Source of the DNA: Candidatus Micrarchaeota archaeon CG1_02_51_15
GTDB lineage: Archaea > Micrarchaeota > Micrarchaeia > Norongarragalinales > UBA8480
DNA length: 35,899 nucleotides
Reading direction: 5' to 3'
NCBI GenBank assembly: GCA_001871495.1
Contig: MNVG01000053.1
Coordinates: 1-35,899, forward strand
Numbering within the stretch: the first letter of the stretch is position 1; every line of letters begins with the position of its first letter. The notes under the pieces are model-generated. The model had not been told where the DNA came from. It saw only the letters and a program-made list of their open reading frames with translations, and searched no databases. A program made the translations under genes and the position numbers. Below, piece by piece: positions 283-25,074 of the stretch.

Positions 283-354
283 ACGGACTTCATTCGTTTT
301 GCCGCTGCAAAACGATGCATCTTTTTGTTTGCGGACAAAAAGCTTGTAGTCCGT
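283..354. repeat. Palindromic element copy 1 (double hairpin)
   Basis: Two perfect hairpins lie side by side: TCGTTTTGC-CGCT-GCAAAACGA at 294-315, and CTTTTTGT-TTGCGG-ACAAAAAG at 321-342, separated by TGCAT. An outer stem ACGGACT (283-289)/AGTCCGT (348-354) encloses both, so the unit could fold as a three-way junction. The first stem and spacer (CGTTTTG...CAAAACGATG) match the copy at 24660-24712. It follows directly on the truncated Nudix gene, so its arrival may have caused or accompanied the truncation. Confidence 0.7.
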
Positions 355-507: not shown

Positions 508-1030
508 ATGAGTAGCGTGAGCTTTGATTTGCAGGGGGGCATGGAAGTGCGTTTGGCGGCGCAAATTTCCATTTTATTTTTACGCCTATGTATCGCGCCA
601 AAGCATTTTCAGACAAAGGGATTAAACAAGCTTTTCGCCTGCAGGCGAAAAGATGTCGTACAAACCGCCAGCGAGCGGTTTGTTCCGAGAGGCTTGCGAA
701 CGCGAGGCGTTCGCAATCGCAGGGCGTTTGAAGGTGGAGGTCGCTGCTTCAGAGTTCGGTCCGGACCACTGGCACTTGTTTGTTGTGCGCGCGAAAAACT
801 ATTCTGAGGTGGAACTAGCGCGGCGTTTCAAGGGCGCGACAAGCCGCGCCTTGCGGCGGGACTTGCTGCAGCAAGTCAGGAAATACGAGTGGGGCGACCA
901 CTTCTGGTCGCACGGCTATTTTTCAGAAACAATAGGACGCGTAACCACTGAAACAATCAAACACTATATCGAAAAAAGCCAAACCAAACACTGGCCACAA
1001 TCCAAACAAACCACACTAACCGCCTACTAA
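508..1030 (+). pseudogene. tnpA: IS200-type Y1 transposase (tnpA), two frame breaks
   Basis: TnpA proteins cut and rejoin single-stranded transposon ends with a HUH motif and one catalytic Tyr. The HUH motif appears as GPDHWHLF and the Tyr helix as FWSHGYFSETIG...IKHYIE, both typical. The protein is spread over three frames. The start ATG (508) reads MSSVSFDLQGG; after the G6 run at about 534-539 the frame changes to HGSAFGGANFHFIFTPMYRAK...KGIKQAF; from about 686 it changes again to REACEREAFAIAGR and runs to the stop. The second shift is explained by about 50 nt of palindromic sequence (636-685; 50 = 2 mod 3) that has no counterpart in TnpA proteins. The first break may be a lost G. The longest single-frame piece lacks the N-terminus, so the gene is probably inactive unless frameshifting occurs. 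Confidence 0.82.
631..716 (+). repeat. Palindromic element copy 2, inside tnpA, plus a third hairpin
   Basis: The first hairpin is a perfect 22-nt palindrome with half-sites CTTTTCGCCTG/CAGGCGAAAAG (631-652). Spacer ATGTCGT leads to the second, ACAAACCG-CCAGCGAG-CGGTTTGT (660-683), then TCCGAG. A third hairpin, TTGCGAACGC-GAG-GCGTTCGCAA (694-716), lies in sequence that reads as normal tnpA coding (CEREAFAIA). The first two align base by base with the copy at 24330-24380 read on the minus strand: same TTTCGCCTGC apex, same TCGTACAA junction, same TTGTTCCGA end, with compensated stem differences. The insertion is out of frame. Confidence 0.8.
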
Positions 1031-22683: not shown

Positions 22684-24063
22684 TCAGTATTTTACCAGCG
22701 TATGCAAATCGTATTTGCCCAAGCCCCGCCTTGCGTTCAGGCTTTCAAGTTCAACTATTGCGAATATCCCGGCTATTCTGCCGCCGGAGTGTTCCGCCAT
22801 TCGGGACATTACGCGCATTGTTTCGCCGGTCGCCAGTATGTAGTCCACCAACAAAACCCTGCTTCCCTTCCGTATCGCGTGTTTCTGGAGATTTACCACG
22901 CGTTGAGGGTTGTATTCGTGTTCGTAGCACGCGGTTATGACTTCGCCGGCCAAGTCCTTGCGGAACATCGGCACCACCCCGCAACCCAGCGCGTTGGCTA
23001 TTGCCCCCGCCCAAACGAGGCCCTGCATGTCCTTCGCAATCACGTAATCTATCCCGTAGCCGGAATACTTTTTTTTAGCGTAACCTATTATGTCCCGAAA
23101 CAACGCAGCATTCCTCATGAGAGGAGTGGTGTCCCTAAACACCATTCCCTTGACTGGGAAATCAGGCACTGAGTTTATTGCCTTCCGTATCCTCCGCGCT
23201 AGCCCGAGTGCCTGCGGGTTCCCGTCGGCTTGTTCGGTCGCGGTTTTTGTGCTGTGCTTGTAAACCCAAATGTATTCGTGCATTGCTTCAAGCGTACGCA
23301 ATCCGTTCGCCGTCGTCGTCTTTTCGGCGATTGCGCTTATCACCTTCTTCCTGCGTTGCGCCGAAAGTCCGTTCCACCTGTCCCCGAACATGAACGACAG
23401 CAGGCGGTTTCCGTTCTTTCCGGGGTTGAATTCGCCGTTCTTGAAGCACGACGACAGGTTTATGCTCGACGCAACCGTTTCCGCATAATGGGGTATGCCA
23501 AGCTCCTTGAGTTTCTTCCTGATGGTTTCGCCGGTTGTCTTTCCGCCGCCGGCTATTCTTTTTATCGCGGTGTGGCTGCTTTCGGCGCTCCTTACGACTA
23601 TCACCGCCGTGCCGTTTTCTTTCAGGCAGCCGTAAATTTTTTCCAAAGCGTTTGCGCCCGCCTTGGCCTGCCAGTCCAAGAAATAGACCACGTTTATGCA
23701 GAGTACCAAGTCGTATTCGTCTTTCAGGTTTCGGGATTCGAATCGTTCGGTCCAAACATTCCTTATGTTACCGGACAAGCCGAGCAGTTTTGCGCGGCGG
23801 AGGAACTTTCCGCGCATTTGGGCAGACGGGTCCAGGTAGTCTATTTCAAGGTTCTTGCGCGGAAGCCTGGCCAACACCTCCAAGTCGTCTTCGCCCGAAC
23901 CGCCCCCCACGCACAGCACTCGCCGGCAGCCGAGCTTCGCGCGCATTATTTTCATTGACAAGTATCTGCTTACAATGCGTTTCTGGTCGATGTTCTGCAG
24001 GAACATCGAATAGAACGCCGCGTTTTTCTTAAAGAAGTCAAGTACCTTGCCGTTCGTGGCCAT
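22684..24063 (-). CDS. Methyltransferase-phosphoribosyltransferase fusion
   Basis: Two domains in 459 residues. Residues 1-about 265 are a class I SAM methyltransferase: VLCVGGGSGEDDLEVLA (motif I), LEIDYLDPS, YDLVLCINVVYFL, similar in style to small-molecule N-methyltransferases. Residues about 290-459 match adenine phosphoribosyltransferase: SVPDFPVKGMVFRDTTPLM, YVIAKDMQGLVWAGAIA and the PRPP loop VLLVDYILATGETM. That loop departs from the usual VDDxLATGGTM at two places (DY for DD, GE for GG), so base specificity or activity may differ. No stop or start separates the halves. It heads a unit with the Nudix and kinase genes beside an insertion element. Confidence 0.82.
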   Translation of the reverse strand: MATNGKVLDFFKKNAAFYSMFLQNIDQKRIVSRYLSMKIMRAKLGCRRVLCVGGGSGEDDLEVLARLPRKNLEIDYLDPSAQMRGKFLRRAKLLGLSGNIRNVWTERFESRNLKDEYDLVLCINVVYFLDWQAKAGANALEKIYGCLKENGTAVIVVRSAESSHTAIKRIAGGGKTTGETIRKKLKELGIPHYAETVASSINLSSCFKNGEFNPGKNGNRLLSFMFGDRWNGLSAQRRKKVISAIAEKTTTANGLRTLEAMHEYIWVYKHSTKTATEQADGNPQALGLARRIRKAINSVPDFPVKGMVFRDTTPLMRNAALFRDIIGYAKKKYSGYGIDYVIAKDMQGLVWAGAIANALGCGVVPMFRKDLAGEVITACYEHEYNPQRVVNLQKHAIRKGSRVLLVDYILATGETMRVMSRMAEHSGGRIAGIFAIVELESLNARRGLGKYDLHTLVKY

Positions 24064-24134
24064 TTCCCAATCGGTATAGCTTGCGCGCGTTTTCGTTATT
24101 AATGTTCTGCCCCCGCGAGCTTTGAATATGGTGA

Positions 24135-25001
24135 TTAGGGCATTTTCGGACCAAATTGACGGATTGTGCTAATAAGTAAAGGGTAAAGTTGTTCGTTTCG
24201 GTGGTTGAATCTGAATTCCATTTTTTTGACGTATTCGGGGTAGTTTTTGCGGTTGATTCCGTGGTATTTGTGGAAGCGTTCTTTGGCGAATGACCAGAAG
24301 CCTTCGATGCCGTTGATGTGGTTGTCGGAACAACGGCTTGCAAGCCGTTGTACGACGACGTTTCGCCAGCAGGCGAAACGCTCGTGTCCTTTGCCGAATG
24401 TTTTTGAGTGTTTGACTCGGTTGTGTTTGCCGTATTGTTTCAAGTCTTTGTAAGACTTGAAGTCGTCAGTGTAAAACATCGAACCTTTCCGCGTTTTCTT
24501 TTGAATGTGTTCGAACAATGTTTTTGCGGAAACGTCGTCAACAACTGCAGTGTAAACGCGGCCGTTTAGCTCTAAGATTCCGAATACTGCTTGCTTGTTG
24601 AACGCTCCGCGGCCGCGATTGCCTTTGCGTCTTCCACCGGAATAGGACTCGTCTGCAAGCGTTTTGTCCTGCCGGACAAAACGATGTGTCGAAAAGCCCG
24701 CCAGCTTTTCGAACACTTCGACGAGTCCGCGTAGTTTCTTGAACTCGTTTTCAGAGTATTCGATGATTGCTCGGCGAAACGCGGCGTAGCGTTTCGCAAC
24801 TGTTTCGTAATCCAAACAGAGTTCACGAGCGCACTTGCGTGCGCTTACTTCTAAATAAAAATAGTACAAGACTTTCAAATCGCGTTTGAGCTTGATCAAA
24901 CTATATTTTTTGCGGCAATTCTTACACTTTATACGCTTGTCACCGAGACGCGACAAACCATAATTGCCACAAAACCAGCACTTGCGACCATGTTCGTACA
25001 T
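24135..25001 (-). CDS. IS1595-family (ISXO2-like) DDE transposase with two palindromic insertions
   Basis: The product has an N-terminal zinc ribbon (CWFCGNYG...IKCKNCRKKYSL), a helix-turn-helix region (ARELCLDYETVAKRY) and the ISXO2-like core: DESYSGGRRKGNRGRGAFNK, VYTAVVDDVSAKTLFEHI, MFYTDDFKSYKDL and HINGIEGFWSFAKERF, holding the acidic catalytic residues. Compared with what the family normally reads, two stretches are extra. One is 20 residues (FEKLAGFSTHRFVRQDKTLA) between GLVEV and DESY, the other about 20-22 residues (ERFACWRNVVVQRLA...) between GKGH and HINGIE. Both are encoded by double hairpins and keep the frame. ATG 25001 (MYEHGRKCWFC) is the likely start. Whether the enzyme tolerates them is unknown. 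Confidence 0.87.
   Translation of the reverse strand: MYEHGRKCWFCGNYGLSRLGDKRIKCKNCRKKYSLIKLKRDLKVLYYFYLEVSARKCARELCLDYETVAKRYAAFRRAIIEYSENEFKKLRGLVEVFEKLAGFSTHRFVRQDKTLADESYSGGRRKGNRGRGAFNKQAVFGILELNGRVYTAVVDDVSAKTLFEHIQKKTRKGSMFYTDDFKSYKDLKQYGKHNRVKHSKTFGKGHERFACWRNVVVQRLASRCSDNHINGIEGFWSFAKERFHKYHGINRKNYPEYVKKMEFRFNHRNEQLYPLLISTIRQFGPKMP
24330..24380 (-). repeat. Palindromic element copy 3, in frame in the IS1595 transposase
   Basis: Read on the coding (minus) strand: CGTTTCGCC-TGCT-GGCGAAACG, spacer TCGTCGT, then a perfect 22-nt palindrome with half-sites ACAACGGCTTG/CAAGCCGTTGT, then TCCGAC. It aligns with the copy in the IS200 tnpA almost base for base at apex, spacer and end, with stem bases changed in compensating pairs. 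It encodes the extra segment between GKGH and HINGIE. Confidence 0.85.
24439..24461. repeat. Inverted repeat inside transposase core coding
   Basis: TTCAAGTCTT-TGT-AAGACTTGAA, a perfect 10-bp stem with 3-nt loop. It encodes FKSYKDLKQ, which is ordinary transposase core sequence, so unlike copies 3 and 4 it is not an obvious insertion. Confidence 0.7.
24660..24712 (+). repeat. Palindromic element copy 4, in frame in the IS1595 transposase
   Basis: On the plus strand: CGTTTTGTCC-TGCC-GGACAAAACG, spacer ATGTG, then TCGAAAAGC-CCGCCA-GCTTTTCGA. The CCTGC apex, ATGT spacer and CCGCCAGC loop match copy 2, and CGTTTTG...CAAAACGATG matches copy 1. The inserted 60 nt fall between coding-strand GGACTCGTCGAAGTG and GACGAGTCC, i.e. 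in the loop of a native 9-bp palindrome (GLV.../DES), immediately before the catalytic Asp codon. Orientation is opposite to copy 3 within the same gene. Confidence 0.85.
24774..24797. repeat. Inverted repeat in the transposase helix-turn-helix coding region
   Basis: GCGAAACGC-GGCGTA-GCGTTTCGC, a perfect 9-bp stem. It encodes AKRYAAFR, normal for the family. A further 7-bp stem AGCGCAC/GTGCGCT lies just beyond, near 24828-24845. Confidence 0.65.
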
Positions 25002-25074
25002 AGCACTTCCAACAACCATAGACGCAAAAACACGCTAAAAGTAGTTAAATTAGTCCGTTTTTGTCACAATCACC

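Follow-up and report, generated by a model that had tools for sequence, protein, structure and literature searches.

Double-hairpin elements inserted in frame in an archaeal IS1595 transposase gene, and similar twin hairpins in other DPANN genomes

Described palindromic elements and the interrupted IS1595 gene

An oddity already known from Rickettsia and some other bacteria is the in-frame insertion of palindromic elements into coding genes. REP dimers and RPEs are described as entering genes in this way, adding 20-30 amino acids and occasionally occurring twice in one gene (PMC3733652). The CGTC REPs, which include Rickettsia RPE-4 and RPE-6, have stems of 8-9 bp and loops of 4-5 nt and are mostly arranged as head-to-head dimers; no dedicated transposase is known for them, and they have been described only in bacteria (PMC3733652). 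Double-hairpin elements of Allomyces mitochondria, and repetitive hairpin elements related to them, occupy genes and spacers and have no flanking duplication, according to the account of Paquin et al. (2000) given in PMC2800124. In the open-access literature searched, we found no archaeal counterpart of in-frame palindromic elements.

We analyzed a stretch of 35,899 nucleotides, hereafter the window, which contains an IS1595 transposase gene with the following features.

24135..25019, minus strand: IS1595-family transposase gene, 294 aa, or 254 aa without inserts; Pfam PF12762 (DDE_Tnp_IS1595)
24130..25074, minus strand: probable extent of the IS1595 element, with inverted ends GGTGATT..., read by eye
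24657..24716, plus strand: insert I1, a double hairpin of 60 nt with the layout AAG-hpA-ATGTG-hpB-CAC, lying antisense to the transposase gene
24660..24683, plus strand: hairpin A of I1, 10-bp stem, 4-nt loop TGCC
24689..24712, plus strand: upper stem of hairpin B of I1, 9 bp with a 6-nt loop; below it, GTG/CAC pair as a lower stem, and 1 nt is bulged
24645..24653, plus strand: left palindrome arm GGACTCGTC beside I1, made of host codons and missing from relatives
24720..24728, plus strand: right palindrome arm GACGAGTCC beside I1
24324..24383, minus strand: insert I2, a 60-nt double-hairpin element GAG-hpA-TCGTCGT-hpB-TCCGAC, in frame

On the coding (minus) strand, GGACTCGTC GAAG is followed by 60 nt and then by CAGACGAGTCC. 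The original prediction had described these 60 nt as a double hairpin inserted in frame and adding 20 residues right before a catalytic Asp, and the DNA proved to be as described. Both hairpins are perfect, with a DNA folding z of -6.8 vs shuffles, and the segment is stop-free, adds 20 aa before the first catalytic Asp (D123), and appears as an exact 60-nt gap in a DNA alignment with three relatives. The coordinates first given were a few bases off: the sequence supplied with them lies at 24654-24713, while the best placement, 24657-24716, reproduces the E-A-D of the relatives with an ambiguity of 1 nt. Removal of the insert had also been expected to restore GLVEVDESY; since the relatives read VE-A-DESY, the motif obtained is GLVEADESY.

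The second insert, I2, had gone unnoticed, and it adds 20 aa directly before NHINGIEGFW. I1 and I2 are the only internal gaps in the DNA alignment with the three relatives, each of exactly 60 nt, and they lie in opposite orientations relative to the transposase gene. A protein alignment, which had been proposed as a check, showed uninterrupted relatives as anticipated: both segments were missing from all 15 intact sequences, which came from DPANN archaea and bacteria. With the two inserts left out, PF12762 matched over the full profile, at 103.3 bits compared with 80.8 bits for the interrupted protein. We also considered two other hairpins in the gene, at 24439-24461 and 24774-24797; relatives show no indel at these positions, so they are ordinary coding sequence.

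No 8-bp target duplication was seen by eye around the IS1595 element. A MITE of this host IS1595 was rejected as the source of the inserts, as the ends AAG...CAC are unlike the IS ends GGTGATT... and there is no duplication. Two contig ends of the same genome (C19 and C48) overlap exactly with the IS1595 element, over 55 and 78 nt, so a second, partly collapsed IS1595 copy may share its middle with the inserts. At 22684-24063 of the window, methyltransferase and phosphoribosyltransferase domains are joined in a single ORF.

Further copies in the same genome and twin hairpins in related ones

Near the other end of the window, we found two more copies of the element.

628..689, plus strand: E4, a 62-nt copy AAG-hpA-ATGTCGT-hpB-TCCGAG, which frameshifts a Y1 transposase
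543..1030, plus strand: gene for an IS200-like Y1 transposase, divided by E4 between two frames
289..345, minus strand: E3, a divergent intergenic copy

E4, like I2, had gone unnoticed. Leaving out its 62 nt, with the same ends (AAG...GAG), gave one open frame. The Y1_Tnp score was 92.2 bits without E4 vs 72.2 with it, and profile coverage went from 34-120 to 5-120; the empty site of E4 was deduced here through frame restoration, not from a relative. I1, I2, and E4 have a common architecture and common ends, with a placement ambiguity of 1-2 nt, and no target duplication was found at any of the three. E3 and a copy on contig C26 (L067 10597-10700) are embedded in a common repeat of ~100 nt, GGCAGAACCCT...ATGAATGCC, whose fold is a three-way junction; changes occur in its outer stem.

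The genome to which the window belongs (G000) amounts to 1.13 Mb, of which 775 kb of stretches were scanned in addition to whole-genome searches. A covariance model trained on three copies, one with two loop bases trimmed, detected untrained copies on contigs C13 (E 8.6e-11), C20 (1.7e-9), C9 (5.7e-9), and C26 (5.7e-6), plus weaker ones; I1 itself scored 5.4e-6. By this model, the family comprises about a dozen copies, mostly intergenic. Several apparent in-gene copies (C5, C13) were left out of the intragenic count because the probable start codon comes only after them. Among 195 other genomes searched, only three had matches at E<=1e-3, and none of these three came from the genus or family of G000. 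In an alignment of eight copies, which was fitted to the structure, 97.9% of cells were paired, compared with 40-51% in slid controls, and double changes occurred at 14 of 18 pairs with a single G-U. Thus, stems differ between copies yet remain palindromic. One copy (L053 1483-1540; C36:7894-7953) lies in the spacer between 16S and 23S rRNA, only a few bases ahead of the 23S start. For the element, no Rfam match exceeded the gathering score; tRNA alone matched in the window.

On evidence that is comparative throughout, the 60 nt very likely belong to a mobile palindromic repeat of about 60 nt that is dispersed and non-coding and consists of two adjacent hairpins with a short linker. Such an element would enter genes, rRNA spacers, and DNA between genes, and leave no target duplication.

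A scan based on structure only, whose first detection required Watson-Crick stems, was used to count twin hairpins. It returned 18 in the 775 kb of G000 (23/Mb), 44 in 343 kb of G136 (128/Mb), 21 in 288 kb of G047 (73/Mb), and none in 138 kb of G001, a genome of the same genus as G000; shuffled sets gave 0 or 1 each. A few matches are native coding palindromes, such as G047 L263 3175-3220. Within G047, six copies of equal length had double changes at 15 pairs, one-sided changes at none, and the middle linker of the elements covaries with both outer linkers. Requiring Watson-Crick pairs biases detection against G-U, and a G-U-permissive scan lessens this bias but does not remove it; in that scan, real twins were in excess at 0-1 G-U pairs and shuffled twins had at least 2. 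Scarcity of G-U therein points to palindromes at the DNA level, with a detection bias persisting. The linker signature is not the same across G000, G047, and G136, so the three families are alike by structure and common descent is not implied.

Some of these copies also lie in frame within genes. A phosphohexomutase of G047 carries an in-frame twin hairpin of ~22 aa in a variable-length loop between domains II and III, an insert that is missing from its relatives and from solved structures. In-frame copies are present in small proteins of G136. Ribosomal protein S2 of G136 (L244 788-1753) has a twin hairpin in frame within its C-terminal tail. The same genome holds arrays of 3-5 adjacent perfect hairpins with short linkers (L232 223-351, L235 1203-1333, L241 7360-7511), which are denser than in the genome of the window, and one array is in frame within a pilin-like ORF. 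In an Aenigmatarchaeota sequence (L102 2406-2456), an independent 46-nt twin hairpin frameshifts a related IS1595 transposase. Small DPANN genomes dense in double-hairpin families, with stems changing on both sides at once, supply many natural replicates for studying the movement of such elements, their action as DNA or as RNA, and the tolerance of proteins for added peptides.

Likeness to the CGTC REPs lies in dimeric arrangement and in-frame intragenic copies (20 aa each for I1 and I2, ~22 aa for the G047 mutase), and in part in stems of 8-10 bp and loops of 4-6 nt. The CGTC REPs carry an unpaired CGTC (or TGTC/CCTC) tag at one end of the hairpin. Here, [CT]GTC stands before hairpin B in I2, E4, and the copies on C36, C13, C20, and C9; it does not occur in I1, the C26 copy, or the G047 and G136 elements. 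The CCA tail of the CGTC REPs is found as outer tails in the G047 elements, whereas G000 tails read CGA, and stem sequences vary strongly among copies here. With a tag that is not constant, the element is at most a candidate member of the CGTC REPs. With the Allomyces elements, as reported in PMC2800124, the likeness lies in two adjacent hairpins, lack of target duplication, and a frequency that varies between related species. It is one of behavior, those elements being mitochondrial and unrelated in sequence. Yeast mitochondrial GC clusters are likewise short, mobile, palindromic, and structurally constrained, but they have AG or ACT duplications and conserved stems (PMC4478555), unlike the variable stems without duplication seen here. 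GTAG REPs and REPINs with their RAYT share paired hairpins, some of them bulged, and recognition of a single-stranded DNA hairpin would be plausible in both; they differ in that our search turned up neither a GTAG tag nor a linked RAYT. By analogy, the CGTC REPs/RPEs and the Allomyces double-hairpin elements appear to be the closest systems in behavior. The best reading would be that DPANN archaea, probably Micrarchaeota to judge by named relatives, carry an element that behaves like the bacterial REP dimers/RPEs and the double-hairpin elements of mitochondria.

Consequences for the transposase and possible modes of movement

Structure prediction had been proposed to see whether the added residues form a surface loop, and the models do not support such a loop. 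The corresponding Asp of an uninterrupted relative, D103, is predicted to lie inside strand 99-107, with a mean pLDDT of 81.5. In the AlphaFold2 model of the window protein, the position of strand beta1 is largely taken by the first residues of the insert, and D123 is found in a low-confidence coil (mean pLDDT 67.6). The models suggest that I1 occupies the strand that normally bears the catalytic Asp rather than a surface loop; because model confidence is low, this structural reading is only suggestive. Both inserts would probably impair or abolish transposase activity. Outside the inserts, the protein has 6 unusual changes at 155 invariant columns, as compared with 3-11 in other sequences, and pairwise dN/dS, where computable, is 0.07-0.10. 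The low dN/dS and the lack of an excess of unusual changes would be consistent with a recent insertion.

We weighed other explanations for the 60 nt. That they encode a variable loop which the transposase has had since ancient times, with codons that make hairpins by chance, has practically nothing to recommend it and is refuted by the alignments: the segment is missing from every aligned relative, and the two inserts have exactly 60 nt, common ends, and same-family copies outside the gene. A second view is that removal of the 60 nt from RNA, in the manner of an archaeal bulge-helix-bulge intron, or else translational bypassing keeps the 20 residues out of the transposase (RFVRQDKTLADESY is the stretch that unspliced reads or un-bypassed peptides would run through). 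This would suit a gene that appears constrained while the inserts break the catalytic strand in the model. Recent insertion, however, explains the constraint equally well, many copies are intergenic, and fungal mitochondrial double-hairpin elements are reported to stay in transcripts (PMC2800124). Given the opposite orientations of I1 and I2 and the frameshifts caused by E4 and the L102 copy, we regard RNA-level removal as very unlikely.

Two further proposals concern how the element moves. The original prediction held that the insert had entered the loop of an existing hairpin, and that its removal restores a native 9-bp palindrome. The palindrome around I1 does exist, with p of about 0.0015 for random flanks, but it was not found in the aligned transposase relatives, so it is native at most for the window copy. 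A general rule of entry into hairpin loops, with cruciform or single-stranded DNA as the target, would draw on the perfect 9 bp at I1, on 11 bp at the C5 copy, and on a few bacterial REP families reported inside small palindromes (PMC3733652). Against it, neither I2, whose empty site is known, nor E4, whose empty site is deduced, has a flanking palindrome, and flank complementarity is at chance level in 11 of 14 copies. The remaining three are I1, C5, and E3 (6 exact bp, p 0.05), too few for loop targeting to be general, and we judge it an unlikely rule; entry as single-stranded or cruciform DNA is possible. Derivation from IS200/IS605 (Y1, HUH) elements, as miniatures moved by TnpA in the way REPs are moved by RAYTs, is doubtful. 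It would fit the eight Y1_Tnp matches in G000, the position of E4 within a tnpA, and the resemblance to IS200/IS605 ends and REPs in hairpin ends, a bulged hairpin B, and the lack of target duplication. Yet the resident IS200 copies of G000 end in different hairpins, no GTAG tag was seen, and G047, with 73 twin hairpins per Mb, has no Y1_Tnp match at 89% completeness; hence a Y1 transposase does not seem to be required. The candidate of a PATE or other IS200 derivative was rejected on the same comparison with resident IS200 ends, which gave no match.

As a dispersed mobile repeat, the element would most likely be non-autonomous and act at the DNA level. The mobile form would be DNA, probably a single-stranded hairpin on which some enzyme acts in trans, and the near absence of G-U pairs and one-sided changes would reflect recognition or arm-to-arm copying at the DNA level. 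Intragenic copies would be read through as ordinary codons, and in genes under selection only frame-keeping copies would survive. As a conjecture that is unlikely to hold, DPANN archaea might harbor many kinds of mobile double-hairpin DNA that form one large class by their structure and not by their sequence. Each copy keeps perfect Watson-Crick palindromes with changing stems and almost no G-U or half-changed pairs, so that, under this conjecture, one arm might be copied anew from the other by folding back during a single-stranded DNA mobility cycle driven by some enzyme. Elsewhere in G000, on contig C11, an MCM-like helicase ORF of 1209 aa (L049 2329-5958) contains an apparent intein-like insertion, as read by eye.
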